Shown here piece by piece: positions 6,001 through 30,141 of a stretch of 37,956 nt of DNA (within the stretch, counting starts at the first letter, position 1; each line of letters begins with the position of its first letter). The translations under genes were made by a program, and so were the position numbers. The notes beneath the pieces are model-generated. The model worked only from the letters and a program-made list of their open reading frames with translations, did no database searches and was not told the DNA's origin. This DNA comes from Bacteroidota bacterium (lineage in GTDB: Bacteria > Bacteroidota > Bacteroidia > Bacteroidales > UBA7960), in assembly GCA_018335675.1 (NCBI GenBank), contig JAGXRQ010000046.1:1-37956 (forward strand), written 5' to 3'.

Positions 6001-9000
6001 ACCGAGAATGTTAATAGTACCTCCGCTCATATTCATAACATTGTCTGCAAAAGGAAGAGTAAGGCTTCCGTACATTCTGAACTCATTAGCTCTAACTGTA
6101 GTAATTTCACGTTGTATATTTACTGTGCCTCCTGTTTGAATATATGTACCTCTATGAGTTCCCGGATTAATAGACGGCCTGATAATATCGGTTGTAAAAG
6201 TACCGCCATTTATTTCAAATTCTGCTGCAACCCTTAAAACGAGCCCAATGTGAGAATTATCAATAAAAGAGCCATTGTTTATAGAAATTTTTCCGAATAG
6301 GTAGAATCCATCAGCCCTTTCGTGAGTTGCTGTGTTGGTTATGGTCAATTGAGCACCATCAACAATTAATTGGGCGTTTGTGCCAATAGCCCAGCCTTCT
6401 CTATGGCAAATTTGGGGAACAATAATATTTGAACCAAGCCGTAAAGTTCCATTATATAATCGAATATTTCCATAATTCACATATCCAGGATCACCGTAAG
6501 TATATCCAAAAGGCCTAAAAAAATCTCCTGAAGCAGTCATGTCAACAGTATATGTTTTATTCGATCCTTTATCTACAATAAACCAAAATGGCTCAAATGA
6601 TCCGTTTAAAGAAATAGTTTGATTTTGGGCAGGACTAGTGCAATAAAATAATGCAAATCCTGTTGCTGGAATTCCATCATAACTTGGTTCTGCAAGATTG
6701 TGTAATCTAACCGCACCACCGCTTTGTACGGTAAGGTTGCCGTGCAGAAAAACATGATGGTACTGATTAGCATTTCTAACCGAAATATTTCCGTTACCTT
6801 CAACAATAACATCATCATAGAAATACACATATCTCATGGTTGCATCATTCCCTATTCTGAAATGCCCCGATTTAACGGTAAGATTTCCATTAACAATAAA
6901 ATTCCCTCCAACAGAAGCAACTCTTGCGGTATTAGAAAAATTTATAATTAAATTGTTAAATGTATTTCTGTTGAATGTGAAATCTGCCGGATTGCCGTAA
7001 AATTCTATTGTTCCGCCGGTTGGTGCTACAAAAGAAGACATTAGTCCGGCGGGTAATGTACCCGAGCTAAGTTTTAAAATACCTTGTCCGTTTAAATTAT
7101 TAAAAGTATTTCCGGTAGTAGCCACTAAATCTAAAATACCGCCATTTCTGATTTCAACAATTTCAACAGTTTTGCTTCCCGCAGTAACAGTAACAGTTCG
7201 TCCGTTTAAAATTACAGCCTTATCATTTGCTCCCGGCAAAAGACTGCCCGGATTACTAAAAATGGTACCGGAAGGATCGGTTGTCCAAGTTGAAGCGCTC
7301 TCCCAGTTGCCATTTTGATAGCTATACAAAGTGGCTCCTGTTGGTGCGCAGGAAATATTGGCTTGCCACCCTGCAGCAACCGTTGCTGCATCGGAATAAA
7401 ACAGAAAGGTTAATGTATTTCCGCTTGAAACAAGAGTGCCCGGACTTGTAGCTCCGGTATATTGCCCTACTAAAGGCGAATTAAAATCAGGCCCGTCATA
7501 AATTCTTAAATAATCAGTAGTATGAACATTAAAGGAAACAAATGCTGCTTTTATATTTCTTCCGTCAGTTGATTGATAGGTTACGGCATATGTTTCGTTG
7601 TTTGCATAATTTCCGCCCGCACCTCCAGTGTCGTAAAATGTTGCTGAACAAGTAACGGTTGGGGTAGGAACATTGGCATAAGTTACTGTAGTAACCCAAG
7701 TATTATTGTTTATAAATGAATAATGGGTGTTGCAACCCGGCACTACAGAACCCCAGGTTCTCATTATGCCAAGAGTAATAGGAACGATACCATCGATATA
7801 AACTCCATTTGCGATATCGTTATAAATTGCTGCTAAGGTTATATCGCAATTACCTCCTGAATCCAAGTTGCAACGAAACCATTCATATACAGCATTATTG
7901 CCCCTTATCCGTGTATAAACCTCACTTCTCCATTGACCATTTTGTGCTGTATATCTCCATTGAGAGGCGGTTTGTGTAACAACTGCGCCGGCTGTTGCAG
8001 TAATATATTTTGTAACTTCATTAACTTCCGGGTTAAGGCAGGAGCCGATATTTCCGGCTGAATATGTGTTAGTTACAGTTGGGTCGATAGTAACAGGGAA
8101 TACTCGATTTTCAGCCATTAGCCACTCCAAAGGCACAACGGTTGTAAGCTTAAGTATATTGCCTTCAATTTCATATCTGTAGGAGCCTTCAATAAAAGAC
8201 TTTTCTTTTTTATCAGCAATGCTATTATCAATATCAACAGAAAAATAGTCACCACAAGCAATATCCAGACTTGAAAAAGAGGTCATTTTACCTTCAAAAA
8301 ACACAGGTAATTCAAATGCACCCATATAGGCACCTTTTTCATCGGTAATTATTAAACTACCTTGCCACCCAAAATTTGTTTCAAACCCATCTCCTTTTAA
8401 TATTTTCCAACCTTTTGGCAGTTCAACAAACTCTGTAAAATTGATTTCGCCTCCTTTATTTGCAATATTTGGTTTTTCATTAATTATATAATCTGTTTTA
8501 ACTTGCCAGTAATCAATTTTCTGAATACGGTCAATATTTTCCCACAGATTATTAATAACAACTGTATTGTCGGAAAAAGAATAGCGGTTATTGCTGCCTG
8601 CTGTTTTTTCTGAAATGATATTTCCATCAGAATCGACAATGCTCATTTTTGCCTTTTCTCCAAACAAAATGGTTTCTCCGCTATGTGAAAGCTGCATTTG
8701 GGTTAAACCTGTGGTCGCATTAACATAAATAGGCAGCTTAGTTGTCTCCATGCCATACAAATTAGACTTTCCTTTAATAGGTTTGACTAAATTGTCAATA
8801 GAAACAAGATATCCGTCTTTCTCATAATGCAGTGTGCCATAGCTATATTGGGTAGAAAAAGTTCCATCAGGATTTTTAAATGTGCGTGAGTTGGCTGTAC
8901 GCATACCCATAATCTCTTCACTTTCTGGTGATTCATCAAGCTTCGCTTTTCCATACTCCGGATGTAGCTTATCTTCCGGGCGATTTTCTGAAATAAAATC

Positions 9001-9306
9001 ACTTATGTTTTCCCCGATTGTCTTAGTGATATGGTTTCTGGAAGCCTTATCCATAGAAATATCCGGAGAAGTGGTTTCCATCGCTTTTAAACTATGTGAA
9101 GCCTCAATAACTTCGGTAGCAATTTTGATCTTATCTCCGCTGCTTGACACATTTTTAGAATCAGCTTGATGGCTAATTTCCTGAAGTATTAATTCAGTTT
9201 TATGCTCTTGAGTAAAGGCAGTCTTTGATAAAATAAAACTCGACAATGCAAAAATTGTCATCATCAAATAATGCTTTTTAATGGCGAAAAGTGTAGTTGT
9301 TTTCAT
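1..9306 (-). CDS. Giant secreted multidomain adhesin-like protein (3' end beyond window)
   Basis: The minus frame starting at ATG 9306 has no stop down to base 1, giving at least 3102 residues; the C-terminus is missing. Residues 1-32 are a signal peptide (MKTTTLFAIKKHYLMMTIFA then a hydrophobic stretch). Residues 33-410 are a conserved-looking head ending in VFPVTIDPTV. A CUB domain lies at about 553-653 (LRIYDGPD). Three supermodules follow, each a G8-like start (NGNWESASTWT at ~660, AATWSPNSSGDP at ~1548, SGNWNNTTNVWS at ~2614), a run of short Gly/Asn/Thr-rich strands like a right-handed beta-helix, and a PIGxxGxYTP domain (~1418, ~2482, degenerate ~2887). A cleaved-adhesin/choice-of-anchor-J domain sits in module 2 (~1698-1848). 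The left edge cuts an Ig/PKD-like repeat (TEFCDDGTT). Seen: frame and motifs. Inferred: surface or matrix adhesin exported by T9SS; a sorting tail is expected but not visible. Confidence 0.9.
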   Translation of the reverse strand, partial: MKTTTLFAIKKHYLMMTIFALSSFILSKTAFTQEHKTELILQEISHQADSKNVSSSGDKIKIATEVIEASHSLKAMETTSPDISMDKASRNHITKTIGENISDFISENRPEDKLHPEYGKAKLDESPESEEIMGMRTANSRTFKNPDGTFSTQYSYGTLHYEKDGYLVSIDNLVKPIKGKSNLYGMETTKLPIYVNATTGLTQMQLSHSGETILFGEKAKMSIVDSDGNIISEKTAGSNNRYSFSDNTVVINNLWENIDRIQKIDYWQVKTDYIINEKPNIANKGGEINFTEFVELPKGWKILKGDGFETNFGWQGSLIITDEKGAYMGAFELPVFFEGKMTSFSSLDIACGDYFSVDIDNSIADKKEKSFIEGSYRYEIEGNILKLTTVVPLEWLMAENRVFPVTIDPTVTNTYSAGNIGSCLNPEVNEVTKYITATAGAVVTQTASQWRYTAQNGQWRSEVYTRIRGNNAVYEWFRCNLDSGGNCDITLAAIYNDIANGVYIDGIVPITLGIMRTWGSVVPGCNTHYSFINNNTWVTTVTYANVPTPTVTCSATFYDTGGAGGNYANNETYAVTYQSTDGRNIKAAFVSFNVHTTDYLRIYDGPDFNSPLVGQYTGATSPGTLVSSGNTLTFLFYSDAATVAAGWQANISCAPTGATLYSYQNGNWESASTWTTDPSGTIFSNPGSLLPGANDKAVILNGRTVTVTAGSKTVEIVEIRNGGILDLVATTGNTFNNLNGQGILKLSSGTLPAGLMSSFVAPTGGTIEFYGNPADFTFNRNTFNNLIINFSNTARVASVGGNFIVNGNLTVKSGHFRIGNDATMRYVYFYDDVIVEGNGNISVRNANQYHHVFLHGNLTVQSGGAVRLHNLAEPSYDGIPATGFALFYCTSPAQNQTISLNGSFEPFWFIVDKGSNKTYTVDMTASGDFFRPFGYTYGDPGYVNYGNIRLYNGTLRLGSNIIVPQICHREGWAIGTNAQLIVDGAQLTITNTATHERADGFYLFGKISINNGSFIDNSHIGLVLRVAAEFEINGGTFTTDIIRPSINPGTHRGTYIQTGGTVNIQREITTVRANEFRMYGSLTLPFADNVMNMSGGTINILGNPTGTGAGDQVGAEFSIILCANLSNINISGGTINLTVPSARNAKINTIAPLWNLNTISSSSTYSAILSSFPGHGGAGIDAQPIRPLTLNGNFSISSPAKFDAANQNVTIKGNATIAAGATYIPGTNTTIFNGSAGQLFTNAGTITGPGLYNMSISNSAIVSITNNLAIRNDLSIATATILQDMGLTINVAGNISISGAHQSQGLGAIILSGGGNQIISGDGNGVFGNLRLNKATGTTSTTANIALTGNLRLANTAAKLTIGANRLSLSANSRIYHDLTSSSSVYTDFSATRMIETNGLQSDAGVVVTFASTDLRLFPIGSAGKYTPARLQFANAPTVWGSVRITPANSRHPLATSNNVLNYYWKISSSGFSGLPANSMRLRLYYSQTDVNGTEGNYVPGVYAPTSWTTYASEKVSEIINEILFDTHPTPQGDFTAGEPGAFGAITAFYSRNGGGDYDVAATWSPNSSGDPIATGAPTASNPVIIQNGHIVTVSANDRRAGTLTIENGGTLDLGVFTGHNFGSLHSGAVTGNGLLRISSSTATTSFPLADWGEFLAEGGGTVEYYTTGAQNFSISPVATSDPNYLHNFIIANSSILNEPFTNTTFPPIGWTIIDAGTGTGVWYHSTDLGNPGGAAVINDQAAGQVNDDYLITPRLIPLTGQSTFSFQRRRRTGPPGGANSSFMVRVSTTGTNIGDFVTVLGSTPADQNWTTTNVNLAAYIGQPIYVAIVCVSQFGMRVDNVTGLYLFVAPEPTEAGSFVEYNNLIVNPGVGRTITLPGSNLRVHNDLIIRGSGISTINNLAPTSIQIKKDLLVESGTFQYPNDRPHIVTVNGNINISSGATYTVASGTEVVNRLNVNGNLINNGTFNLFASAARYANVYFTPIIEQTLSGTGATTRFNRIFVDKGSGQSSRLNINSSNFVINTAIQQALTITNGTVRFNGPSASISGAHIFNIPETACLSVAGGTITIGGDDNASDITLAGKIEVSGGALNVGGAAATANNNDIEVAGGGRPEIVVSDGTLYVRGQIRRSATSTSGALVYNQSGGTINILGRSRILARAFFEVTNEGSSFTMSGGTLLLNRSETVGVKTFGDLYLNPSSYNVTGGTIQLGGTNALNGDIFELYLGCPVWNLTVDGNTRVKHARLITFPATILGNLQIGSSTAAQASTFNTNGLNVTIGGSLISHTTATSANIYQYVNATQTTIFNGVAASQAIQNSGTNPIRFGTITINNNQTNGRVDVTGTSNIEVYGNLNITNGELSQVGRLINLYGNVYNYAVHSSNGSAGALVFSSTTGQSIFGSNNAVFGYLAYLNTASKTVTSNNSFYITSGLDFGTTNNYLAMQSHGLTLGPNITSILNSSSSSFITTNGVISDLGITRQWSGTGLFMYPIGVAGKYTPVTMNVTNTGGSAGSITIKPINRFHPATANAQGDELQYYWTVSSSGFGATPTVTHTYTYLDGDVQGDEASYVGGRYNDMAWTTVGAINTVANTITLSDVNYINGEYTAGLAANFVSKPPLYSLISGNWNNTTNVWSTDGSTACGCAPNGNPVFIRNGHTITSTANNAFAYSVDIASGAILDLGQTIEHNLGHVTGAGTLKITSTAAGSFIFPGGNYEVFMNTDGSTVEYVGTGTLPSNITTYQNVTFSGAASFKYIPAVDLLVQGNLSISQGILDNRNYNRNITIYKNWLNNVSGGFLPGTGTVSFEGGLAQTLQNTAASETFYNLSINKTANHVTLNSNVVVSRTMTLTRGNFITQSNNLSLSWTSLLAVSGGSSASFVDGNLRKLISNGSSFIFPVGNGTRYGAARVFGTATTGNQYWTVRYYNEAPADRSNLVNPLQTVSDNEYWTIQCAAIGTANIRIRWDALSSPMPVPNNALYRQKLRVAQYVPGWTSVGQLIFDFGATNGTIQTSTPVSFTAATNNIFTVGVVETATAKIIGTVGGLTEFCDDGTTLAVIVELTGDSPWSFTYNINGGNATTVTSVGASPYNLIFNYADLFAISGVGNY

Positions 9307-9480: not shown

Positions 9481-9512
9481 AGTCGACAGTCGGCAGTCGA
9501 CAGTCGATAGTC
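9481..9512. repeat. Left arm of inverted repeat (GTCGAC/GTCGGC type)
   Basis: This arm is built of a GTCGAC / GTCGGC / GTCGATAGTC word repeated at about 7-base steps. Its last 18 bases (9495-9512, AGTCGACAGTCGATAGTC) are the exact reverse complement of 9681-9698. The rest matches imperfectly. It is followed by TCTCTGTGAATCTCTGTGTA, itself a short direct repeat of TCTCTGTG. Confidence 0.85.
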
Positions 9513-9548
9513 TCTGTGAATCTCTGTGTAACTAAGGGTTGCGGAAGA

Positions 9549-9632
9549 GGGGGGAGGGGTATAAAGGTATAGGGTATAGGGGTATAGGGGTATAGGGGTA
9601 TAGGGTATAGGGGAGGGGTTTATAGGGTATAA
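9549..9632. repeat. GGGGTATA tandem repeat tract
   Basis: About nine 7-8 base units of the form GGGGTATA or GGGTATA run in tandem, with a GGGGGGGAGGGG stretch at the start and a GGGGAGGGG interruption near the end. Nearly every unit carries three or four G in a row, so the plus strand could fold into a G-quadruplex. The base composition is sharply different from the AT-rich surroundings. Confidence 0.85.
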
Positions 9633-9704: not shown

Positions 9705-12700
9705 TTACTTCACCACTAGTCTCTGAACTTCGCTAAAGTCTCCTGATAATATTCTTACTAAATATAATCCAGGAGTAATTTCGCTAAGGTTTATTTCTTG
9801 TGTTTGCAGTAATTCTGCTTCTCCAACAGTAAGAGTTTTTACAACTTGACCTTGAACATTAACCAGCTGAATCATTGTTTCATTTTCTAATCCTCTCAAT
9901 GTTATAGAAACGTTGTTGGTTGCAGGGTTAGGATATACAGAAATCAAAGGACGTTCGATTAGTGAAATCAAATCATTAGATTCTCCCGCTTTTGCTCCAA
10001 CAGAAACAACAACATCATCAATTGCAAAATGTGCACCGTCGTTACCGGTATATCTGAACTGCAGCCTTAAATTAGATTGTCCGGCGTATGCGGATAGGCT
10101 TACATTTGCTTGTAACCAATCGTATGCTGTAGCAGTGCTAAAACCGGGATGATTATCGCTTGTCCAAATCTGTGTCCAAGCTCCATTGTTAACGCTGGCT
10201 CTCACTGTCAGAGTACAGTTGTTGCTAGGAGAAACTGACCAATAATAGCTACCGCTAAACCAGAATGATAAATTTGGATTAGATAGGCTGCTAAAATTGA
10301 ATGTTGCAGTAGTTAGCTGTTCGTCTTGATTTACAGCCTGCCATGGAACGTAAGCAAAGTGAGTTCCTGATTTTGGAGAAACAGTTGCACTTCCAATAGT
10401 ATAGCCGGTAGAACGTGTCCAAGTATTAGTAGCTTGAGAAGCAAGGCTCCAGCAATCAGGCACCCAGCTTTGACTAAAGTTTTGAGTATATGGGAACGAT
10501 GAAACAGTACAGCTTGTTCCTGTAATAGAAACATCATCTATACTCCAGTAGTATCCCCAAGTTCCTGTATAGTTCCACTTAAATTTAACTTGAGATTGAC
10601 CAGCAACTGCAGGAATACTCATATTGAACGTTGCAGGGTTGCCGGTGTCAACAGTCCAAGCCTGAACCTGAGTCCATGTAGATCCATTATTTGTGCTATA
10701 GAAGAATCTTGCAGTAGATCCGGTATAATGACGATAATAATGTTTAAACGACACATTAACTGTTGTGTATGCGCTTAAGTTGAGTGTAGGTGTTATTAAA
10801 TCTGCATTCTGAGAGTTTCCGCTACCATAGCCATCACTGTTTAGGAATGCATAATTTCCTGATGCACCAGACATAGAACCGCCTGTTCCGAATTGCCATA
10901 CTTGTCCGTTTCCTTGATTATCAATTATAGACCAGCAAGTAGGTAAAGTGGTATTGGCAAAACCTTCATTAAAAGGTAAAGTATATGCAGGGCATCCCTG
11001 AGCTGCGAAATGTGCAGTTGCAGTGGCATTTGCATTCATTGTTAGGTTTAGAGACTGACTTGTATAATCAGTACCATTAACAACCCACTTAACAAACTGT
11101 TGGCCTGAACCCGGAGTTGCATTAATATTTACAACACTTCCTGCATTATAAGTATGATTTCCAACTGCAGGAGTTGTTGTTCCGTTTCCGCTAACAGCCA
11201 TTGTTAAAGTGTATTGAATAGGAGCAAAATGTGCCGTTGCTGTTTTGTTTGCATTCATTGTTACTGTAGTAGAAGCAGTAAGCACATCAGACTGTCCTGT
11301 TATAACCCATTTTACAAACTGATGACCTGAGGCCGGAGTTGCGTTAAGATTAACAACAGTTCCAGAGTTATGTGTGTTTGTTCCAACAGCAGGAGTGGTA
11401 GTTCCGCTTCCACTTACAGCTGTAGTAAGTGTATATTGGATTGGAGTGAAATGTGCAGTAGCTGTAACATTACTATTCATAGTAACATTAATAGACTGAT
11501 TAGTATTATCGGCTCCATTAACAACCCACTTAACAAATTGCTGACCTGAGCCGGGAGTTGCACTAAGATTAACAACAGATCCTGAGTTGTATGTGTGGTT
11601 TCCAACGGCAGGAGTTGTTGTTCCTGTACCATTGGTGGCCATTGTCAACGTATATTGCTGAACTGCTGAACTACCCGTAATTTGAACATCGTCAATACAC
11701 CAGTAGTAACCCCATGTTCCTGTAAAATTCCACTTAAATTTTACCTGAGATTGTCCTGCTACATTTGGTATCTGCATGCTAAATGTTGCTGGGTTTGCTG
11801 TAGTAGCAGTCCATTGTTGCACTTGAGTCCATGTAGAACCATTATTTATACTATATGATAATGTTGCTGTTGAGGATGTTTGATACTGACGGAAATAATG
11901 CTTGAATGACAGAGTAACTGTTCCGTAGCTGCTCAGGTTTAATGTTGGAGTTACAAGGTCGGAATTTTGAGTATTTCCGCTACCATAACCATCACTATTT
12001 AAATGCGCATAATTTCCGGAAGATCCGGTTAAGCCGTTACTGACAGTTCCGAACTTCCAAACCTGTCCGTTGTTTCTATGGTCAACAATACTCCAGCATG
12101 TTGGAAGAGATGTTGTTCCAAAGCCTTCATTAAAAGGAAGAGTATAGGCATTGCAAGTTGGAGTATCTTGAAAAAAATATGCTGTGGCAGTAGTATTTGC
12201 ATTCATTGTAATTTGCAATGATGCAGTAGTATAATTACTTCCATTGACTATCCACTTATCGAATACGAATCCCGGAGATGGGCTGGCAGAAATATTTACA
12301 GTTGAGCCCTGATTGTAAGTATGAGTTCCCGGTACTGGACTTACAGAGCCGGTACCATTAACGGCCATTGTTAGAGTATATTGAGTTGTTTGTTGTGTTC
12401 CTGTAATCTGAACATCGTCAATACACCAATAATAACCCCAAGAGCCTGTATAATTCCATCTGAACTTAACGTTATTTTTATTGGCAACAGCAGGAACTTG
12501 CTGAGTAAAAGTTGCAGGGTTTGCAGTAGATGCAGTCCATTGTTGTATTTGGGTCCAAGTAGATCCGTTATCTAAGCTATATGATAAAGTTGCTGTAGAA
12601 ACAGTATTGTATTGGCGGAAATAATGTTTGAAGGTTAAAGTTACTGTTGAATATCCGGTGAAATTATAAGTAGGAGAAACTAAGTCAGAATTTTGAGTAT

Positions 12701-14114
12701 TTCCACTTCCATAACCATCACTGTTTAAGTATGCATAATTTCCGGAAGCTCCGCTAAGGCCGCTGGCAACAGTACCAAATTTCCAAACCTGTCCGTTTCC
12801 TTGTCTGTCTATTACACTCCAGCAAGAAGGTGTTGTTGTTCCGCTAAAACCTTCATTATAGGGAAGAGCTGTTATAGTTCCACATTGAGTAGCTGCACTA
12901 GTTGTTGCACCTGAAGAATATTGGTTTGTGGCATTATACGACCAAACTTTGTAGTTATAAGTTGTTGCTGCCGATAATCCAGTGTGCTGGAAGCTTGTAG
13001 CTGTTCCTCTGTAAAGAATTGTGCCACCACCTGACAGTGCTTGTCCGGCGCTATATGTAGTTCCGTTTGCTGGTGTTCCGAAAGTTCCGCTTGGTGACCA
13101 TGCAACCATAACACTGTTGTTTGCAGCATTTTTAGTCCACGCAAGATTTATCTGACTTTGGCTAGCTCCAGTTGCAGTAACATTTGTTGGATTAGCAACT
13201 CCACCGCTCGGACCTTCCCAAGTTAGTCCGGTAGTTGTCTGAATCCAAGTTTGAAAATAAGATACTCTTGCATATATACCGGGGTAATATGGACGTGCAC
13301 AGCCAATTCCCCAACTTGTTGCACCTGCGAGGCGATAACCCACAGGAGAATCTGCAGCCGGAACAACAAACGGACCACCGCTGTCGCCCTGACATGCATC
13401 AACACCACCTTGTGTTAGGTTTCCAGCGCATATCATATCATCAGTAACCTGTCCGGTAGTGTAATATCCCGGACTCATTGCCTGAGCATTAGAAACAATA
13501 GGAACAGATGCTTTTAATAAAGTATTTGATGCAGAGCCTCCTTCGCTTGTAGCACCCCAGCCTGTAATTGTTGCAATTACTCCAGGGTCTTGAATTCCTG
13601 CAGAGGCGTGTGCTGCTGTTACAATAGGGATTGCTTTAACGTTTGCTCCTGAAAGGTCGAGAGGTGTGCTAAGTCTTAGCAAGGCAATATCGTTGCGATG
13701 TGTGCTTGCAACATACTGTGGATGCTTAATCTCTTGAGCTACAACACGGTCTTGTCCGGTTGTGTGTGTTTTGTTTGTAACACCTGCACGAATCTTAATG
13801 TTTGAGTAACTTCCAAGACAATGTGCGGCAGTTAAAATCCAATATTCGCTAATGACAGTACCTCCACAAAACTGTGCGTTAGAACTTGTCATAATGGCAA
13901 CCTGCCAAGGAAAGTCTGTTATACTAGCAGTTGTTCCACCTACAATTCTACCTAAAATAGGCTCATCCAAATCAAAGTCTAGCAAGCTAGGCTGTTTGAT
14001 AGATATTGGAGGGTTTTCGGGGTTGATTTCAGCAGTTGTTGTATTTGCTGTTAATAGTAAGAAAGAAATTAATGCAAGAAAAGTAGCTTTGTGAAAGAAG
14101 TAAAGTTTATTCAT
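9705..14114 (-). CDS. Secreted trypsin-like serine protease with T9SS sorting domain
   Basis: A 1469-aa S1-family protease. Signal peptide 1-28; short propeptide to R56, then mature start IVGG at 57. Catalytic triad: H98 (TAAHC), D142 (NDIALLRL), S245 (GDSGGP). D239, six residues before the serine, sits where trypsin has Asp189, so cleavage after Arg/Lys is expected. After the protease (57-295) come a fibronectin-III-like domain (~308-409), choice-of-anchor-J domains (~417-573, 657-815, 1044-1200, divergent 1205-1372), InlB-type B-repeats (~578-647, 820-889, 893-963, 967-1036) and a T9SS sorting domain (~1390-1469, SVYPNPA, ending LVVK). Known of these families: the sorting domain directs T9SS export; anchor-J and Fn3 domains are often binding modules. 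Oddity: the cysteine expected at VSNAQC is alanine (A212), leaving C229 without its usual partner. Confidence 0.95.
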   Translation of the reverse strand: MNKLYFFHKATFLALISFLLLTANTTTAEINPENPPISIKQPSLLDFDLDEPILGRIVGGTTASITDFPWQVAIMTSSNAQFCGGTVISEYWILTAAHCLGSYSNIKIRAGVTNKTHTTGQDRVVAQEIKHPQYVASTHRNDIALLRLSTPLDLSGANVKAIPIVTAAHASAGIQDPGVIATITGWGATSEGGSASNTLLKASVPIVSNAQAMSPGYYTTGQVTDDMICAGNLTQGGVDACQGDSGGPFVVPAADSPVGYRLAGATSWGIGCARPYYPGIYARVSYFQTWIQTTTGLTWEGPSGGVANPTNVTATGASQSQINLAWTKNAANNSVMVAWSPSGTFGTPANGTTYSAGQALSGGGTILYRGTATSFQHTGLSAATTYNYKVWSYNATNQYSSGATTSAATQCGTITALPYNEGFSGTTTPSCWSVIDRQGNGQVWKFGTVASGLSGASGNYAYLNSDGYGSGNTQNSDLVSPTYNFTGYSTVTLTFKHYFRQYNTVSTATLSYSLDNGSTWTQIQQWTASTANPATFTQQVPAVANKNNVKFRWNYTGSWGYYWCIDDVQITGTQQTTQYTLTMAVNGTGSVSPVPGTHTYNQGSTVNISASPSPGFVFDKWIVNGSNYTTASLQITMNANTTATAYFFQDTPTCNAYTLPFNEGFGTTSLPTCWSIVDHRNNGQVWKFGTVSNGLTGSSGNYAHLNSDGYGSGNTQNSDLVTPTLNLSSYGTVTLSFKHYFRQYQTSSTATLSYSINNGSTWTQVQQWTATTANPATFSMQIPNVAGQSQVKFKWNFTGTWGYYWCIDDVQITGSSAVQQYTLTMATNGTGTTTPAVGNHTYNSGSVVNLSATPGSGQQFVKWVVNGADNTNQSINVTMNSNVTATAHFTPIQYTLTTAVSGSGTTTPAVGTNTHNSGTVVNLNATPASGHQFVKWVITGQSDVLTASTTVTMNANKTATAHFAPIQYTLTMAVSGNGTTTPAVGNHTYNAGSVVNINATPGSGQQFVKWVVNGTDYTSQSLNLTMNANATATAHFAAQGCPAYTLPFNEGFANTTLPTCWSIIDNQGNGQVWQFGTGGSMSGASGNYAFLNSDGYGSGNSQNADLITPTLNLSAYTTVNVSFKHYYRHYTGSTARFFYSTNNGSTWTQVQAWTVDTGNPATFNMSIPAVAGQSQVKFKWNYTGTWGYYWSIDDVSITGTSCTVSSFPYTQNFSQSWVPDCWSLASQATNTWTRSTGYTIGSATVSPKSGTHFAYVPWQAVNQDEQLTTATFNFSSLSNPNLSFWFSGSYYWSVSPSNNCTLTVRASVNNGAWTQIWTSDNHPGFSTATAYDWLQANVSLSAYAGQSNLRLQFRYTGNDGAHFAIDDVVVSVGAKAGESNDLISLIERPLISVYPNPATNNVSITLRGLENETMIQLVNVQGQVVKTLTVGEAELLQTQEINLSEITPGLYLVRILSGDFSEVQRLVVK
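10515..12866 (-). repeat. Internal domain duplications in the protease gene
   Basis: Three copies of an approximately 470-base unit encode near-identical anchor-J domains (12396-12866, 11670-12146, 10515-10985). Four approximately 210-base units encode B-repeats (12174-12383, 11448-11657, 11226-11438, 11007-11216). Protein similarity is high, with shared phrases such as LNSDGYGSGN and the WGYYW motif. Many silent positions differ, so the duplications are not very recent. The third anchor-J copy has Ser where the others have Cys in YYWCIDDV. Confidence 0.8.
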
Positions 14115-14445: not shown

Positions 14446-15198
14446 TTATAAAGAAACGACAAGTTTTCTTGTAGAAATAATAATGTTGTCAACGACGAAA
14501 GAAACCATAAACATACCTCTTTGCAGAGAAGAAGTATCAAGCCTGTATTTATTTGAAGAAGAATCTAAAAGAATCTCATTTATCAACCTTCCGGTAATGG
14601 AATATATTCTAATAGAAGATGTACTTTCAGACGAGACTGTATAATTAACTTCAGTGTAGTCTTTAGCAGGATTTGGGAATAAAGAGTTAAGAGAAGAAAC
14701 AATTTGTGGTAATTCAATAATAGAATTAGGCTCCTCTTCTTCGTAAACAAAATGTACAATAACCTCAACTGTTTCAAAATCTTCACGGTCGGAAAAGAAC
14801 TCATATTTAATAATAGAAGTTCCTTCTTTACCGTCGGGAATATAGTCAGCGTAGAAGTCGGCGGCAGTTGAAGTTTCTCCCGGTTCAAGCAAAATGGGAA
14901 CATCAGCTTCAAAAGTATTCTCATCTAAGCAGGCATCATTCCAGCAAAAATAATTTATTGTACCTGGGATAACATCAACTTCAACTTTTCTAACCAAAAC
15001 AGAAACAATAACATCCTTGTCATTTCTAAAGAAAATTTTGGCTTTCATTATACCAAATACATCAATATCTTCAACGAATAGTTCGCCGTTTGTAATGTCG
15101 TTGCCATCTTTATCAAGCAAAACCAGTTCCTGAGCTTTAATTAAAAAAGCATTCAGCAAAAATGTTGCGAAAACCGAGAGTAGTAAAAACTTTTTCAT
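14446..15198 (-). CDS. Small T9SS-sorted secreted protein of unknown function
   Basis: A 250-aa protein. I chose ATG 15198 because it gives a clean signal peptide (MKKFLLLSVFATFLLNAFLI then KAQ); the open frame reaches back to 15261 but that extension looks non-coding. The mature part (about 24-170) is acidic and beta-rich. It carries a pair of cysteines (FCWNDACL) and the phrase LEPGETSTAADFYADYIPDG, typical of immunoglobulin-like beta sandwiches. The last ~75 residues are a T9SS sorting domain (SLFPNPAKDYTEVNY, ending LVVSL). It lies upstream of the protease gene on the same strand but with its own candidate terminator between, so they are probably separate transcripts. The function is not recognised; known sorting-domain biology implies export to the surface or medium. 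Confidence 0.85.
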   Translation of the reverse strand: MKKFLLLSVFATFLLNAFLIKAQELVLLDKDGNDITNGELFVEDIDVFGIMKAKIFFRNDKDVIVSVLVRKVEVDVIPGTINYFCWNDACLDENTFEADVPILLEPGETSTAADFYADYIPDGKEGTSIIKYEFFSDREDFETVEVIVHFVYEEEEPNSIIELPQIVSSLNSLFPNPAKDYTEVNYTVSSESTSSIRIYSITGRLINEILLDSSSNKYRLDTSSLQRGMFMVSFVVDNIIISTRKLVVSL

Positions 15199-15445: not shown

Positions 15446-17893
15446 ATGAAAAAATCCGTAACACTATCAATTGCATTAATACTGGCGTTTTTTGTTTCAA
15501 ATGCACAGGTATTAATTAATGAAACATTTTCATCAGGGACATTTCCACCGGTAGGTTGGAGTATTTCAGCACAGGCAGGTAACTGGTCGACTGTAACATC
15601 AAGCAATGCAGGAGGGCAATCGCCTGAGGTCAGACTAAACTGGACACCAGCATTTAACACAACAACAAGATTAATAATGCCTGTTATGGATGTTGCTGCT
15701 TTAAATGCCACAACAGTAGTAGCGTCATTTAAGCATATGTTGGATCACTATTCAGAAACATACAATATTGGGTTTTCTTATAGAATAGGCAGTGGAAGTT
15801 GGGTTAACATTTGGTCGCAATCGGTTACACAGAGTATCGCAGCCCAGACAAAGACTTTTATTATAACAGAGGCTGCTATTTTGGAAAGCAGTGAAGTTCA
15901 ATTTTCAATTTTCTTTTCAGGAAACAGCTATTATTTAAACTATTGGTATATTGACGATGTAACAATTCTAGCACCTGAAGGTATGGATTTAGCTTTAACC
16001 AAAGTAAATCTTCCAAATGTATTTGCATCACCATATACAATTACAGGAACGGTTTCTAATTTTGGGGCAGAAGAAATTACTTCTTTTGACCTAAATTGGG
16101 TAATAAGCGATAAAGAAGTTGTTACAGAATCTTTCTCAGGGTTGAATATTTCAGCATTCGAAACATTTGATTTTAGTGCTGCCAACGCTCTTGACCTAGC
16201 ACCTGGACAATATGATATTGAAGTTTATATATCAAACGTTAATGGACAGGCAGAAGATGATGATGCGAGCAATGATTCATTCAATAAAGCATTTCAAGTA
16301 GCGCATAATTCAGTAGCTCGTCGGCCGGTTTTTGAATCATTTACGAGCTCAACTTGTCCGCCTTGCTTCACATTTAATAATAACTTTTTTAATGCATTCA
16401 CTACTACCAACGCAGACGATATTGTATTAATTAAGTATCAGATGAACTGGCCGGGAAATGGCGACCCTTACTATAATGCAGACGGAGGTATTCGCAGAAC
16501 GTATTATGGCGTTAGTGGTGTTCCTTCTCTTTTTATTGAGGGCAAATCAACAACACTTAGCTCAGTTGCAATAAACAATGCTTTAGCAGAAGGCAAAAAC
16601 AATCCTGCTTTTGTTATTATTGAAAGCGAATATTTTATGGATGGAAAGACAATTTCAATTTCAGGAAGCCTTATGCCATATGCTAACTTTGAAGGAGTGA
16701 GAATGCACGTCGGAGTTATTGAAGGCGTTACATATAATAACGCAACATCAAATGGTGAAACTTCCTTTAAGCACGTTATGCATAAGATGTTACCTAACGG
16801 AAACGGTACTTCTATTAATCTAGTTGCTTTAAACGAGTATGATTTTTCATTTGAATTCAATATGTCATCAACAAAGGTTGAAGAGATGCACGACTTGAAA
16901 GTAGTTATATTCCTCCAAAACAATGCTACCAAAGAAATTTATCAGAGTGGATATGCGCAATTGGTTGGTCCTCCGATTGCAAATGCAAACATAGTTGGCG
17001 GAGAAGCAACAGCTGAGATAACCGCTAACATAATTATCAATTTTAGCATGCCTGTGTTTGATACTGATGGCTCTAACCTTACAAGCGAAACAGCAAAAGA
17101 AAAAGTTACTTTCCAAACTTCGGCTAAAGCTGATGTTGATTTCGACCTTACTTTAAATGCATCTTCAACTTCTTTTACAATTACTCCGGCAGAAAATCTT
17201 GAGTTTTCAACAGATTATATAATTACTATTCAGCCATTAATGGGGATTACAGGTGAAATTTCTGAAGAAGTGACATTTGAATTTACAACCAGAGATATAG
17301 TTGCTGCTCCTTCGGTAACATTTAATGTTTTAAGCAATGAAACAAATGTTGCAATCACTAAGGTTCTTAAAATTTATTTTGATCAAGCAGTAAGAAACAC
17401 AGATGGTAGTGCAATTAACAACACAAATGCTGCTGCTTTGGTTAATCTAAAAGACAATTCAGAAAACAATGTGGCATTTACGGCTACAATTAACACTGCA
17501 AAAACTGAAATTACAGTTACACCTACATCAAGTTTAAATTATAATACTACATATACTCTTGAAGTATTGCCGGTGCTTGGAACAGACCAAGAGTCGGAAC
17601 TATCTGCTGTATCATTTACTACTGTTCAACAAGTTGGAATAAATGACATCGTACTTGAGGGGGTAAACATTTATCCTAATCCGGCAAGTGATTATTTAAT
17701 AATTACACTACCTGGAGAAAATGCTTCTGTAATAAACATTTATGACATTAAAGGTAAGCTTGTTATTTCTGAGCAAGTTGAGGGAGGCAGCACAAGAGTT
17801 AATGTTTCCGGTCTTATGAATGGTGTTTATATGATAAGAATAATTGATGGGGAGAAAGTCTTTAACGGGAAATTCAACATTTTGTCTAAATAA
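15446..17893 (+). CDS. Omp28-like secreted protein with CPPC thioredoxin-type domain, Ig-like domains and T9SS tail
   Basis: An 815-aa protein with signal peptide 1-20 (ending SNAQ). Residues ~25-176 are a choice-of-anchor-J domain (NETFSSGTFPPVGW, WYIDDVTI). Residues ~180-288 look like a CARDB/Ig-type domain. Residues ~290-505 match the Omp28-related family. They begin FESFTSSTCPPC, with CPPC at 304-307, and have a Val-Pro at 359-360 (GVSGVPSLFIEG) where thioredoxin folds carry the cis-proline. Two SbsA/Big_5 Ig-like domains follow (~508-615, ~620-727), then a T9SS sorting domain (~738-815, NIYPNPASDYLIITL). Seen: the CxxC and the cis-Pro context, suggesting a thiol-active or once-active thioredoxin fold. 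Inferred: surface-exposed disulfide chemistry or a structural role. It is the first gene of a plus-strand cluster with a TlpA-like thioredoxin and a DUF6029-like barrel. Confidence 0.88.
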   Translation: MKKSVTLSIALILAFFVSNAQVLINETFSSGTFPPVGWSISAQAGNWSTVTSSNAGGQSPEVRLNWTPAFNTTTRLIMPVMDVAALNATTVVASFKHMLDHYSETYNIGFSYRIGSGSWVNIWSQSVTQSIAAQTKTFIITEAAILESSEVQFSIFFSGNSYYLNYWYIDDVTILAPEGMDLALTKVNLPNVFASPYTITGTVSNFGAEEITSFDLNWVISDKEVVTESFSGLNISAFETFDFSAANALDLAPGQYDIEVYISNVNGQAEDDDASNDSFNKAFQVAHNSVARRPVFESFTSSTCPPCFTFNNNFFNAFTTTNADDIVLIKYQMNWPGNGDPYYNADGGIRRTYYGVSGVPSLFIEGKSTTLSSVAINNALAEGKNNPAFVIIESEYFMDGKTISISGSLMPYANFEGVRMHVGVIEGVTYNNATSNGETSFKHVMHKMLPNGNGTSINLVALNEYDFSFEFNMSSTKVEEMHDLKVVIFLQNNATKEIYQSGYAQLVGPPIANANIVGGEATAEITANIIINFSMPVFDTDGSNLTSETAKEKVTFQTSAKADVDFDLTLNASSTSFTITPAENLEFSTDYIITIQPLMGITGEISEEVTFEFTTRDIVAAPSVTFNVLSNETNVAITKVLKIYFDQAVRNTDGSAINNTNAAALVNLKDNSENNVAFTATINTAKTEITVTPTSSLNYNTTYTLEVLPVLGTDQESELSAVSFTTVQQVGINDIVLEGVNIYPNPASDYLIITLPGENASVINIYDIKGKLVISEQVEGGSTRVNVSGLMNGVYMIRIIDGEKVFNGKFNILSK

Positions 17894-17910
17894 TTTCATT
17901 GAATAAATAA

Positions 17911-17944
17911 CACAGAGCAGCACAAAGAACAATATCTTTGTGCT
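17911..17944. repeat. Hairpin repeat between the Omp28-like and TlpA-like genes
   Basis: AGCACAAAGA (17919-17928) and TCTTTGTGCT (17935-17944) form a perfect ten-pair stem with a six-base loop. Flanking CACAGAG and CTTTGTG words extend the symmetry imperfectly. There is no U-run, so it is not a classic terminator. CTCTGTG words also occur at 9511-9529, suggesting a dispersed intergenic repeat. It might act as an attenuator or mRNA-end stabiliser. Confidence 0.6.
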
Positions 17945-17987
17945 CTTTGTGTTTCAATACTTAAAGAAACATTTAAAAACAGATGTT

Positions 17988-18509
17988 ATGAAAATTAGAA
18001 ACCTGTTAATATTTTTTGCCACTGCATTGGTTGTGATAACAACTAATGCGCAAAGCAATCGCATCCCTTCTATTATGATAAAAAATCTTGAAGGTCAATG
18101 CATAAACACCTCAGAATTTCAAAATGATGGCAAACCCTATGTTGTAAGTTTTTGGGCCACATGGTGTCGTCCATGTCTTAAGGAGCTTACAGCAATTGAT
18201 GAAATTTATGAAGATTGGCTGGAGGAAGGATTTAAGCTTATTGCAATAAGTACAGACAATGCTAGAACAAAAAACAATGTGATGCCTATGGTAAAAGGAA
18301 GAGGTTGGCAGTTTGAATTTTATAGCGATGAGAATGGTGATTTACAAAGAGCCATGGGAGTAAATATGATTCCACACACGTTTATTCTAGACGCTAATGG
18401 AAATATAATAGAACAGCACAGGGCATTTTCTGATGGTATGGAGTGGGAAATGTTTGAAAAACTTAAAAAGATAATGAATGAAAGCAAAGTTGAAACTCCT
18501 GAGGAATAA
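17988..18509 (+). CDS. TlpA-like periplasmic thioredoxin
   Basis: A 173-aa thioredoxin-fold protein of the TlpA/ResA type. I chose ATG 17988 because it begins a normal signal peptide (MKIRNLLIFFATALVVITTN, cleavage after AQ). The open frame extends to 17940, but that part overlaps the repeat hairpin. The active site is WCRPC (C60, C63) in the context FWATWCRPC, with the cis-proline at P129 (NMIPHTFIL). Known of the family: these proteins reduce or exchange disulfides outside the cytoplasm, for example in cytochrome maturation. Here no cytochrome gene is nearby. The neighbours are an Omp28-like CPPC protein upstream and a DUF6029-like barrel downstream, whose start overlaps this gene's end by 32 bases, implying co-translation. 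The acidic tail (SKVETPEE) lies within the overlap. Confidence 0.9.
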   Translation: MKIRNLLIFFATALVVITTNAQSNRIPSIMIKNLEGQCINTSEFQNDGKPYVVSFWATWCRPCLKELTAIDEIYEDWLEEGFKLIAISTDNARTKNNVMPMVKGRGWQFEFYSDENGDLQRAMGVNMIPHTFILDANGNIIEQHRAFSDGMEWEMFEKLKKIMNESKVETPEE

Positions 18510-20151
18510 GATATCAGTTTTATTTCTAGCGTTATTTTTGTTTTCTCTTAATAGCTATTCCGGAGAGTTATTGCCCGGCGCGCGTATTTGGGGAAATTTC
18601 CAGATGGATGCTCAGTATTATCTTCAGGATTCATTAATAGGTGCACCTGATGTATCTGAGAAAATTCTCATGAATGGCTTTGCCAATATTAATTTTTCAT
18701 GGAATAATTTTTCAATGGGGATGAGATATGAAAGCTATCAGAATGCAATGCTTGGATACGACCCCAAGTATAAAGGCAGCGGAATACCATACAGATTTGC
18801 ATCCTATACACAAGACAATCTGGAAATAACTATTGGTAATTTTTATGACCAATTTGGAAGTGGGTTAGTTTTTCGAGCATACGAAGAACGAAATCTTGGA
18901 ATAGACAACGCAATGGATGGAATAAGGTTGCTTTACAGACCTGTTTTAGGACTTACACTTAAGGGTATAATTGGTCAGCAGAGATTGTTTTTTGACAAAG
19001 GGCCAGGTATAGTTAGAGGATTTGATGCTGAGTTTTGTATTAATGAAGTTATAACTTCTTTGGCTGAAAACAATAACAGATGGATTATAGGAGCTGGAGT
19101 TGTAAGTAAGTATCAAAGAGATCAAGACCCATTGTTTAATCTTCCCGAGAATGTTGCTGCGGTTTCTGGCAGACTGAAATATACCCGAAGTGCTTTTATG
19201 TTTTCGGTCGAATATGCTCATAAAGTTAATGACCCATCTTCAGAAAACAATTTTATATACAAAGACGGACAAGCGCTACTGCTTAATACCTCATATTCAT
19301 CGTCTGGTCTGGGCATATTGCTTTCAGCAAAGAGAATAGATAATATGGGCTTTAGGTCAGACAGAAATGCGACAGGCAATGATCTTAATATTAATTATCT
19401 GCCGCCAACAACAAGACAACATCTCTATAGTCTGTCAGGAATGTATCCTTATGCAACTCAGCCAAATGGCGAAATAGGGGTGCTGGGAGAACTAACCTAT
19501 AAAATTCCCAAAGGAGGTTTTTTGGGCGGACAATATGGAACTACCGTTGTTGTTAATTACAGCCTTGCCAACTCTATTTATAAAGAAAAACTGAACGACA
19601 CAACTGCAATTGGACAAAGAGGTACTCTAGGTTATAATACTGATTTTTTTAAAGTTGGAGATGAAAAGTATTTTGAAGATTTTAATATAGAAATAAGTAG
19701 AAGGATTTCACGAAATCTGAGAGGTCTGTTTTCTTATGCGTATATAACATATAATCAAAATGTAATTGAGGGCTATTTGGACAAGGGGATGGTTTATGCA
19801 CATGTTGTAATTGCCGATTTTACTCACAGATTGCCAAATCGCAAAAGCGTTAGATGGGAGTTGCAGCATTTATATACCGAGCAGGATAAGGGGAGTTGGG
19901 CAATGGCAATGTTAGAATATAGCATTTCGCCAAATTGGTTTTTTGCTATTTCAGACCAGTATAACTACGGAAACAAGGTTAAAGAACTTCAGCAACATTA
20001 TTATAATGTTTCAGCAGGATATACTATTAATGCAAACAGATTTGCAGTTTCTTTCGGTCGACAGAGAGAAGGTATTGTTTGTGTAGGTGGTGTTTGCAGG
20101 CAGCTGCCGGCATCTTATGGGATTTCTCTTAACGTAACCAGTTCGTTCTAA
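18478..20151 (+). CDS. DUF6029-type outer-membrane beta-barrel protein
   Basis: A 557-aa protein with signal peptide 1-28 (hydrophobic VLFLALFLFSLNSYS). It then consists almost wholly of short alternating amphipathic strands rich in Tyr, Asn and Gly, ending in a terminal Phe (NVTSSF), as expected for an outer-membrane barrel. The region AMLGYDPKYKGSG ... YDQFGSGLVFRAYEERNLG resembles, from memory, the Bacteroidota family DUF6029, whose function is unknown. A CVGGVCRQ motif near residues 540-546 offers two cysteines spaced CxxxxC close to the C-terminus. The start at 18478 is required for the signal peptide and lies inside the TlpA-like gene. The stop is separated by one base from the convergent ABC-F gene. 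Inference: it works with the thioredoxin-like partners encoded just upstream. Confidence 0.75.
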   Translation: MKAKLKLLRNKISVLFLALFLFSLNSYSGELLPGARIWGNFQMDAQYYLQDSLIGAPDVSEKILMNGFANINFSWNNFSMGMRYESYQNAMLGYDPKYKGSGIPYRFASYTQDNLEITIGNFYDQFGSGLVFRAYEERNLGIDNAMDGIRLLYRPVLGLTLKGIIGQQRLFFDKGPGIVRGFDAEFCINEVITSLAENNNRWIIGAGVVSKYQRDQDPLFNLPENVAAVSGRLKYTRSAFMFSVEYAHKVNDPSSENNFIYKDGQALLLNTSYSSSGLGILLSAKRIDNMGFRSDRNATGNDLNINYLPPTTRQHLYSLSGMYPYATQPNGEIGVLGELTYKIPKGGFLGGQYGTTVVVNYSLANSIYKEKLNDTTAIGQRGTLGYNTDFFKVGDEKYFEDFNIEISRRISRNLRGLFSYAYITYNQNVIEGYLDKGMVYAHVVIADFTHRLPNRKSVRWELQHLYTEQDKGSWAMAMLEYSISPNWFFAISDQYNYGNKVKELQQHYYNVSAGYTINANRFAVSFGRQREGIVCVGGVCRQLPASYGISLNVTSSF

Positions 20152-28690: not shown

Positions 28691-30112
28691 ATGAAAATAA
28701 GATCAATAGCTTTCTTAATAGTTTTTGTAATTGCATGTAATGTCTCTTTTGGCCAAAAAAAACAATGGTCGATTAATGAATGTATTGAATATGCTTGGGA
28801 AAACAATCTAAGATTGAAGCAACAACAGCTCAGAGTGTATATTGCAAAGCAGAGCCTGCTTCAAAGCAGGGGAAATCTTTTTCCAACGCTTAATGCTAAT
28901 GCTTCTCATCTTTATAACTATGGACGAACTGTTGATCCATTAACAAACGAGTTTGCAACTGAACGAATACAATCAAACAATTTCTCAATAAGCAGTGGAC
29001 TAACAGTTTTTAGTGGGCTTCAGATATACAACACAATAAAACAAAGCAAACTGGAGTTGGAAGCAGAAGAGTACGATGTAAGCAAAATGCGTAATGACAT
29101 TACCTTGTCTATTGCATTGGCTTACTTGCAAATTATTTATAGTTTAGAAGTTTTAGAAACCACTAATAATCAGGTTGAAATAACTCGTCAACAGCTTGAG
29201 AGAACTAAAAAGCTTGTTGACGCCGGAACACAGCCTAGAGGAGCGTTATTTACTATTGAAGCTCAACTCGCTTCTGAAGAACTACAGCTGATAAATGCTC
29301 AAAACAGACTCAATCTAGCTTATCTGGACTTAGCTCAAATGCTTGACATCAAAGACGTAGAAAACTTTGAAATAAAATCTCCTGAAGTAGAATTTGTTCC
29401 TCAAAAGGAATATGAATATTCACCTATGCAAATTTATAATGTTGCCATAGGTGTGCAACCGGAGATAAAATCAGCAGATATTCGGGTGAAAAGTGCAGAA
29501 AAAGGATTGGCAATAGCTCGAGGAGCAAGAAGTCCAATGCTTTCTCTAAGAGGGTCCTATGGAACGGGCTATACTGAGAATAGTAGAGAAATAGTTGACA
29601 TTATTCCCGGAGAACCGACAGAAATTGGTGTAACCGCAATGGGAGAGCCTGTTTTTGCACCAACATTTCAATATAATACTCAGATAAAGCCTTTTTCTGA
29701 CCAATTGAATGATAATTTGAATCATAGTTTTGGCTTTTATCTTACTATACCTATTTTTAATAATTTTCAAGTTAGTGCCGCAGTGTCAAGGTCAAAAATA
29801 AATCTTGACAATTCGCGTATTTCAAATCAGCTTGTAAAAGACCAGTTGTTTAAAAACATTCAACAGGCGCACGCCGACGCCTCTGCTGCATTAAGAAGAT
29901 ATAGCGCATCTTTGAAAAATGTTGAGGCATTGAAAGAATCATTTCGATATATTGAGCAAAGGTTTAATGTTGGGATGGTTAACTATATTGAGTATAACGA
30001 TGCAAAAAACAGGTTAGCAACCGCAGAATCTGAATTATTGCAATCTAAATTTGAGTATGTTTTCAGAACATCCATACTTGATTTTTACATGGGCAATCCG
30101 CTAAGATTTTAA
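28691..30112 (+). CDS. TolC-family outer-membrane efflux protein
   Basis: A 473-aa protein with signal peptide 1-21 (ending SFGQ). It has the two-fold OEP pattern: WSINECIEYAWENNLRLKQQ at the start of the first repeat, long alpha-helical stretches with heptads (TRQQLERTKKLVDAGTQPRG), then a second helical repeat (IEQRFNVGMVNYIEYNDAKN). Known of the family: these form the trimeric outer-membrane duct of tripartite efflux or type I secretion systems. The periplasmic adaptor gene follows 29 bases later. The inner-membrane pump (ABC or RND) is not in the window, so the exported substrate cannot be guessed. Confidence 0.92.
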   Translation: MKIRSIAFLIVFVIACNVSFGQKKQWSINECIEYAWENNLRLKQQQLRVYIAKQSLLQSRGNLFPTLNANASHLYNYGRTVDPLTNEFATERIQSNNFSISSGLTVFSGLQIYNTIKQSKLELEAEEYDVSKMRNDITLSIALAYLQIIYSLEVLETTNNQVEITRQQLERTKKLVDAGTQPRGALFTIEAQLASEELQLINAQNRLNLAYLDLAQMLDIKDVENFEIKSPEVEFVPQKEYEYSPMQIYNVAIGVQPEIKSADIRVKSAEKGLAIARGARSPMLSLRGSYGTGYTENSREIVDIIPGEPTEIGVTAMGEPVFAPTFQYNTQIKPFSDQLNDNLNHSFGFYLTIPIFNNFQVSAAVSRSKINLDNSRISNQLVKDQLFKNIQQAHADASAALRRYSASLKNVEALKESFRYIEQRFNVGMVNYIEYNDAKNRLATAESELLQSKFEYVFRTSILDFYMGNPLRF

Positions 30113-30141
30113 TTTATTGATAACACTTCAAATACTATACG

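Follow-up and report, generated by a model that had tools for sequence, protein, structure and literature searches.

The DsbD/CcdA-TlpA/ResA thiol-disulfide relays of the inner membrane end in the periplasm, and we know of no earlier thiol relay that runs through the outer membrane. In Porphyromonas gingivalis, PorA (PGN_0123, PG2172) relays a surface signal to PorXY-SigP, and the accessible text of the study describing it states that the route from PorA at the surface to PorY in the inner membrane is open and that 'other factor(s) should mediate' (PMC7712824). Another protein of this species, HBP35 (PG0616), reduces insulin via its CxxC motif according to the accessible part of its description (PMC2907840). 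Here we describe a gene set that may link proteins of these kinds, found in a 37,956-nucleotide stretch of DNA (the window), which is contig C46 (JAGXRQ010000046.1) of a 3.36-Mb Bacteroidota genome in 150 contigs (GCA_018335675.1). The set comprises genes for a TlpA-like thioredoxin, a DUF6029 outer-membrane barrel, Omp28-type thioredoxins and a PorA-family protein, and it may constitute a thiol-disulfide relay of the outer membrane.

Little has been written about its central component. DUF6029 has been proposed to be a polysaccharide porin on account of its HHpred likeness to Wzi-type barrels, as stated in the accessible part of that paper (PMC9603273), and nothing further on DUF6029 was found in a literature search that left subscription papers mostly outside, which makes this a weak negative. 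Within the same scope, no description of the gene set as a system was encountered, and the titles and abstracts found contained no system of outer-membrane thiol exchange in Bacteroidetes, again a weak negative.

The gene set in the window and across Bacteroidota

A TlpA gene, a DUF6029 gene, an Omp28-type or other redoxin gene and a PorA-family gene almost certainly form a conserved set in Bacteroidota, as judged from the gene neighbourhoods compared. In the window, three consecutive plus-strand genes occupy 15446-20151, as the initial annotation had it. The first (15446..17893) encodes a multidomain HBP35/Omp28-like protein of 815 amino acids (aa), assigned by Pfam and NCBIfam to secretion by the type IX secretion system (T9SS); the second (17988..18509) encodes a TlpA/ResA-like periplasmic thioredoxin of 173 aa with a signal peptide; and the third (18478..20151) encodes the DUF6029 barrel of 557 aa. 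The last two genes overlap by exactly the 32 bases first reported (18478..18509), and homologous loci repeatedly show short overlaps as well, often of 4 bases. The first two genes are separated by a terminator-like hairpin (17919..17944, plus strand; a consensus match only, with 7 found against 4.2 expected in the region), and because it precedes the TlpA gene, the 815-aa gene may be a separate transcript from the TlpA-DUF6029 pair. On the minus strand, 14446..15198 encodes a T9SS-sorted PorA-family protein of 250 aa, which is the fifth member of the set. While the three genes originally grouped together do belong to it, this divergent gene and the lipoprotein form of Omp28 had been overlooked.

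The window was compared with 80 further DUF6029 loci from a phylum sample, in which 80 of 296 genomes matched and 81 DUF6029-type proteins were found (25 families among the sample loci), and with 80 named loci, the closest 80 of 573 relatives, which include Bacteroidales, Flavobacteriales, Lentimicrobium, Hymenobacter, Chlorobiota and Kapaibacterium records. Neighbours were counted from six-frame searches, since longer antisense open reading frames can hide TlpA genes, and the hidden Markov models for TlpA, Omp28 and redoxins were built from phylum-sample neighbours with seeds chosen by the patterns WC..C, C..CP and C.HC; the counts and motifs of the phylum sample are partly circular, and the named set was not used in model building. 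Of the 80 sample loci with a flank, 66 have a TlpA gene on the same strand no more than 1.5 kb upstream and 5 more have one on the opposite strand; the same-strand arrangement is seen in 69 of the 75 named loci. Within 2.5 kb downstream of DUF6029, an Omp28 gene is found in 38/81 sample and 73/77 named loci; 21 more of the 81 sample loci have another redoxin there, which brings the total with Omp28 or a redoxin to 59/81. In addition, 29 of the 161 loci, the window included, carry a long Omp28-type protein upstream of TlpA (27 of these match Por_Secre_tail and 23 match Omp28). The association of DUF6029, TlpA and Omp28, first suspected from this genome alone, therefore reaches far beyond it and recurs across the phylum.

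A control with another barrel rules out random adjacency as well as a general habit of barrels to stand beside thioredoxins: a thioredoxin-fold neighbour within 1.5 kb was found in 1/30 PorP_SprF loci vs 29/30 DUF6029 loci, the latter being the best-scoring ones with the window included. LamB, intended as a second control barrel, was absent from all 21 genomes searched. At the level of whole genomes, DUF6029 occurs in 58 of the 62 genomes of the 296 that have Omp28 and in 22 of the 234 that lack it; likewise, 44 of the 55 genomes with a PorA-family protein have DUF6029, or 36/39 when hits below about 1e-12 are considered.

The same grouping emerges from the thioredoxin side. The best solved relative of the window TlpA is PDB 2m72 (E=7.5e-43), which we take to be P. 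gingivalis PG_2175. With 2m72 as the query, 275 of 395 genomes from the class of the window contain a match with E of at most 1e-20. Among 20 loci picked from the best matches listed for these 275 genomes, DUF6029 is present in 17 (15 within a 600-base measure), an Omp28-type protein in 18 and the PorA family in 14, and all five parts occur in 7 according to a reading of the table; L237, L243 and L252 have a 2m72-type TlpA and no DUF6029 in the stretch. In L236, with a TlpA 64% identical to 2m72, the genes follow on one strand in the order TlpA, DUF6029 (CAGGVCR), Omp28, a PorA-like protein (CVGGSCY), an Omp28-like protein and DsbD; the T9SS tail of the PorA-like protein and the last Omp28-like protein both score below cut-off. 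The set genes also stand in one row in L251, with Omp28 between DUF6029 and PorA, and a DsbD relative directly follows DUF6029 in L033. Among the named loci, that of Hymenobacter duratus BT646 (L138) contains all five parts. In P. gingivalis itself, PorA (PG2172) and PG2173, the latter named an Omp28 lipoprotein in the accessible part of its source (PMC9722745), have consecutive locus tags. PG2174, an uncharacterised vesicle protein in the accessible text of another study (PMC4335976), is presumably the DUF6029 member of that species, given the locus-tag order and the gene order of L236.

Conserved cysteines of the members

The window barrel matches PF19494 with E=2.5e-186 and 620.9 bits (gathering threshold 27) over profile positions 6-538 of 538, and is thus a full-length member of the family. 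The CxxxxC pair that had been pointed out near its C-terminus (CVGGVC, C535 and C540; 20080..20097, plus strand, with a genome pattern match starting at 20080) is the sole conserved cysteine pair of DUF6029. A CxxGxC pair is present in 78/81 sample proteins, and the exceptions, all kept in the counts, are two broken or cut reading frames (L058 and L059) and one protein below the DUF6029 cut-off that has no cysteine pair (L112). In an alignment of 80 rows (A2), both cysteines, both intervening glycines and the following arginine are invariant in 80/80 (CxxGxCR), and the only other column with cysteine in at least 8 sequences is a single one near the N-terminus (9/81).

The AlphaFold2 model of DUF6029 (predicted local distance difference test, pLDDT, 94.7; predicted template modelling score, pTM, 0.87) is a barrel that spans the protein from aa 36 to its C-terminus. 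From DSSP, 24 strands were counted, joined mostly by short turns at one end of the barrel and by longer loops at the opposite end. Since the C-terminus ends the last strand, strand parity places the last loop (loop 12, residues 530-545) outside, and C535 and C540 are accordingly predicted to sit in a small hairpin on the extracellular side. No solved structure of a sequence relative was found at E up to 1, and the nearest solved folds are the ushers FimD (Z 18.3, 3ohn) and PapC (Z 17.4) and OprD-type porins (Z 17.7). FimD and PapC ushers form a 24-strand pore; DUF6029 was rejected as an usher of this kind, since the strand number fits but the 557-aa protein is without the N- and C-terminal periplasmic domains.

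The TlpA open reading frame begins at GTG 17940 and ends at 18509, and its likely start is ATG 17988, from which the signal peptide was judged by eye. The product has an AhpC-TSA/Redoxin domain and the WCRPC motif recognised earlier (18162..18176, plus strand), and so belongs to the TlpA/ResA type; it reaches no NCBIfam equivalog or subfamily cut-off. WCxPC is found in 126/129 TlpA neighbours, which had been preselected by score and CxxC. The residue before the proline, considered as a pointer to redox direction, is mostly V or I in the neighbours that matched the pattern used for it (54/129 did not match). The genome holds only 10 Redoxin matches in total and two DsbD_TM matches.

As the initial annotation proposed, the 815-aa protein carries a CPPC motif (aa 304-307; 16355..16366, plus strand; its cysteines are kept in the alignment) and a T9SS sorting domain (PF18962, 51.5 bits vs a cut-off of 27; TIGR04183, 50.2 bits). 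Its Omp28 label stood only in part: the protein scores 29.1 bits against Omp28 (PF11551), below the gathering threshold of 34.9, and is not filed as Omp28, but it is related to this family by alignment and fold. The relevant domain (16265..17047, plus strand) is modelled by AlphaFold2 (pLDDT 88.5) as a thioredoxin fold followed by a beta-sandwich, and matches HBP35 (5y1a) with Z 22.8 over 213 residues (2.3 A, 16% identity). With the thioredoxin fold, the HBP35 beta-sandwich and the T9SS sorting domain, the protein qualifies as HBP35-like, and the domain is predicted to be a surface thioredoxin of the HBP35 kind.

Unlike the 815-aa gene, the commonest Omp28 partner is a small Omp28 lipoprotein encoded directly downstream of DUF6029, and the genome of the window has one such lipoprotein on another contig (G000:C38, L001:1186-2037, motif CPNC). 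PF11551 is matched by all 30 selected small Omp28 proteins (29 neighbours and the own-genome copy), 6 of which have a T9SS domain, and the residues C, C, P, W and G do not vary among them. When long and small kinds are aligned together (34 sequences), both cysteines are invariant throughout, as is a proline further along that corresponds to the cis-Pro of thioredoxins, which bears out the expected conservation of the Omp28 CxxC with the caveat that the model seeds were chosen with the C..CP pattern. A relaxed lipobox pattern divides 109 Omp28 neighbours into 95 with a lipobox, 9 with a T9SS domain and 5 with neither, three of which have a QCD box by eye; the strict pattern finds a lipobox in 63/109. 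Because one or more acidic residues follow the lipobox cysteine at positions +2 to +6 in 94 of the 95 lipoproteins, these are probably surface-exposed, and the residues are similar, though not identical, to the published lipoprotein export signals given in the accessible part of PMC5080379. In one family (f24), one or two CxHC redoxins replace the downstream Omp28 in 18/19 loci; among the loci inspected, one such redoxin has a lipobox and one a T9SS domain. As a separate observation, a 511-aa Omp28 neighbour (L157:4098-5633) contains two CVNC motifs and is apparently a duplicated surface thioredoxin.

The T9SS tail is the sole Pfam match of the 14446-15198 protein (Por_Secre_tail at aa 174-249 of the 251-aa reading), and its N-domain, presumably Ig-like as in PorA, was recognised through its relatives. 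Such N-domains occur in 64/161 DUF6029 loci, mostly upstream and divergent, and contain a short cysteine hairpin (CWNDAC in the window, 14929..14946, minus strand). Both cysteines are present in 66/66 aligned copies, and in alignment A7 (32 members, the window protein first) C85 and C90 are invariant. When profile A7 was compared with solved chains, the one match below E=0.001 was PorA-N (6kjk, E=2.1e-6, 70 positions), in which the CFGQC of PorA aligns under the family hairpin; the relationship to PorA-N is thus established through the family profile and not through the window protein by itself. With E values up to 0.01 allowed, each Pfam or NCBIfam family matches at most one of these 32 N-domains. 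Three PorA-family domain copies in one 503-aa reading frame were also seen beside a DUF6029 gene (L065:6866-8374, minus strand).

A proposed outer-membrane relay and its alternatives

Because each member of the locus carries one invariant cysteine pair, disulfide exchange is the simplest reading, and the company of DUF6029 assigns it a likely, thiol-based chemistry. The reading that we favour, with a probability of roughly 0.47, is an outer-membrane thiol-disulfide relay that acts on the DUF6029 and PorA hairpins. In such a relay, inner-membrane DsbD/CcdA would feed TlpA, which would set the redox state of the DUF6029 hairpin, either via the barrel lumen or before barrel insertion, and outside, Omp28/HBP35-like thioredoxins would swap disulfides between the hairpin of DUF6029 and that of PorA. 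Depending on its redox state, PorA could then tune PorXY-SigP, and T9SS expression would thereby track the state of the surface. A reducing direction is weakly favoured, since the DsbD genes of L236 and L033 and the two DsbD_TM matches of the own genome offer reducing power. The initial annotation had suggested a pathway passing thiol or disulfide exchange from periplasm to surface; its thiol-based envelope module is well supported, and the passage of electrons or disulfides to the surface is something we infer. The lipoprotein Omp28 and the PorA-family gene, which it did not include, likely shift the meaning of the set towards redox control of the T9SS surface signal. In its strongest form, the proposal is that TlpA, the barrel hairpin and the surface thioredoxins act as a transducer that passes redox equivalents to PorA, so that the redox state outside would be read via PorXY-SigP as T9SS expression; this further step is speculative and, on present evidence, rather unlikely.

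Several observations weigh against a relay of this kind. Neither Omp28 nor a redoxin is found downstream in 22/81 sample loci, the window among them, and in 4/77 named loci; an upstream TlpA is missing from 9/80 sample loci; and a PorA-family gene is within reach in just 64 of the 161 loci. Eleven genomes have a PorA homologue without a DUF6029 match, and in L243 and L252 TlpA stays close to a PorA-family gene although the stretch has no barrel gene, so that the barrel is not always needed. The compared genomes are related, and Fisher values consequently exaggerate their independence. DsbD adjoins the set in 2 of the 181 loci searched (L236 and L033), one of which is the query's own. The predicted topology is an additional difficulty: strand parity puts the DUF6029 pair outside, away from periplasmic TlpA, so that a contact between TlpA and this pair is not obvious, and the cysteine pairs could be static structural disulfides. 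Neighbours that would suit other functions also recur. In f24 (L094-L105), 11 loci have, no more than six genes from DUF6029, a member of a cluster represented by an iron-dependent repressor with a FeoA domain, and TonB-receptor clusters recur in the same range, one in 9 loci and one in 7. In f25 (L045-L053), a gene of about 550 aa stands two places downstream on the other strand in 7/7 loci, its cluster representative matching Wzi (PF14052, 33.1 vs 30.1 bits). Among the clusters whose members were listed, such recurrence is confined to single families, and a few other clusters, such as an LptB-like ABC protein and a HlyD-type adaptor (by eye), are scattered over families. Finally, no experiment on DUF6029 or the gene set was found in the literature, and the accessible text on PorA reports that its authors detected no direct PorA-PorY contact and ties PorA to signalling in one species (PMC7712824).

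In one alternative explanation, TlpA and Omp28 merely help folding by forming or proof-reading structural disulfides in the DUF6029 and PorA hairpins, with no relay or signalling involved. DsbA and DsbC form and proof-read the disulfides of LptD in this manner. No neighbour in the sampled loci is as constant as TlpA, the barrel is exposed to the periplasm before insertion, and the hairpin spacing is short and suited to a disulfide (C-x4-C in DUF6029, and C-x3-C or C-x4-C in 62/65 PorA-family hairpins). What such helpers leave unexplained is a second thioredoxin kept on the surface and its replacement by other surface redoxins in f24, and we regard this explanation as doubtful.

DUF6029 might alternatively serve PorA more directly, as an export route or docking receptor for PorA-family proteins, with the thioredoxins keeping the PorA cysteines in the right state. 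According to the accessible text, PorA arrives at the surface independently of the T9SS translocon and its N-domain resembles FimH (PMC7712824), which accords with the usher-like folds closest to DUF6029 and with the single row of genes in L236 and L251, where Omp28 lies in between. The OprD-type porins are nearly equal in score, however, and the usher likeness may reflect strand number alone; PorA also bears a T9SS domain, and the 11 genomes mentioned above have members of its family but no DUF6029 match. A pore or receptor for PorA is improbable. Uptake of a ligand, with DUF6029 as the porin and the surface and periplasmic thioredoxin folds as binders of haem, metal or thiol compounds, is improbable as well: HBP35, the closest fold to the Omp28-like domain of the window, binds haemin, but the accessible description maps haem binding to M135-P344, a fragment without the active-site cysteines (PMC2907840). 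Moreover, the repressor and TonB-receptor neighbours that would suit such uptake occur in f24 only, among the clusters listed, and none stands beside the set in the window. A polysaccharide export porin, as proposed from the likeness to Wzi-type barrels in the accessible part of PMC9603273 and seemingly echoed by the Wzi-matching cluster in 7/7 f25 loci, is very improbable, since that neighbour belongs to a single family and the invariant cysteines and thioredoxins would go unexplained.

Other window features and relation to known systems

Elsewhere in the window, a reading frame of at least 3102 aa (1-9306, minus strand) fills the left quarter and runs off the contig end. Short tandem repeats of AGGGGTAT and AGTCGAC units (9481-9613) separate it from a second large minus-strand gene (9705-14114), which encodes a 1469-aa trypsin-like protease that is T9SS-sorted and in which choice-of-anchor-J/MAM-like modules are repeated. 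Further along, genes for an outer-membrane efflux protein and a HlyD-type adaptor are adjacent (28691-31503), with no pump gene among the neighbouring open reading frames.

If the transducer exists, it would close the gap between PorA at the surface and PorY in the inner membrane, and in any case the members of the set are named candidates for that route whose active-site cysteines are conserved. The set joins HBP35-, Omp28- and PorA-type proteins into one module, and a thiol system reaching the outer face of the outer membrane would represent a new place for such chemistry. The question is directly testable, since P. gingivalis relatives have already been solved (PDB 2r2c, 5y1a, 6kjk at 1.3 A and, by our assignment, 2m72).

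One known system close to the locus is the PorA-PorXY-SigP pathway of P. gingivalis. In the window a PorA-family gene stands next to the set, the tags PG2172 and PG2173 are consecutive, and a single PglZ-domain match, in a frame of 519 aa that fits the expectation for PorX, is present in the own genome. The difference is that the thiol gene set is not part of the description of the pathway (PMC7712824): this is the only paper retrieved for PorA and redox that concerns the T9SS PorA, its text does not contain the words redox or disulfide, and Omp28, operon, neighbor and PGN_0120-0122 are absent from it as well. HBP35 resembles the 815-aa protein in its predicted fold, CxxC motif and T9SS sorting, whereas the window protein, at 815 aa, has extra Ig/CARDB-like domains and adjoins tlpA and DUF6029. 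The polysaccharide-porin proposal concerns the same Pfam family, and its accessible text mentions neither cysteines nor thioredoxins (PMC9603273). Beyond this phylum, the pneumococcal Etrx1/Etrx2-MsrAB2 system likewise includes surface thioredoxin-fold lipoproteins, with electron pathways from CcdA through Etrx to SpMsrAB2 in the accessible part of its description (PMC3914529), but it belongs to a Gram-positive organism without an outer membrane or a barrel.

The gene set would be a kind of thiol-disulfide relay, and its known counterparts include the DsbD/CcdA-TlpA/ResA relays, with which it shares a TlpA-like protein and, next to the set in L236 and L033, DsbD as typical parts. Here, in contrast, an invariant cysteine pair is located in an outer-membrane barrel and further thioredoxins are placed at the surface, and a transducer across the outer membrane would count as a new kind of relay, to our knowledge the first to run through that membrane.

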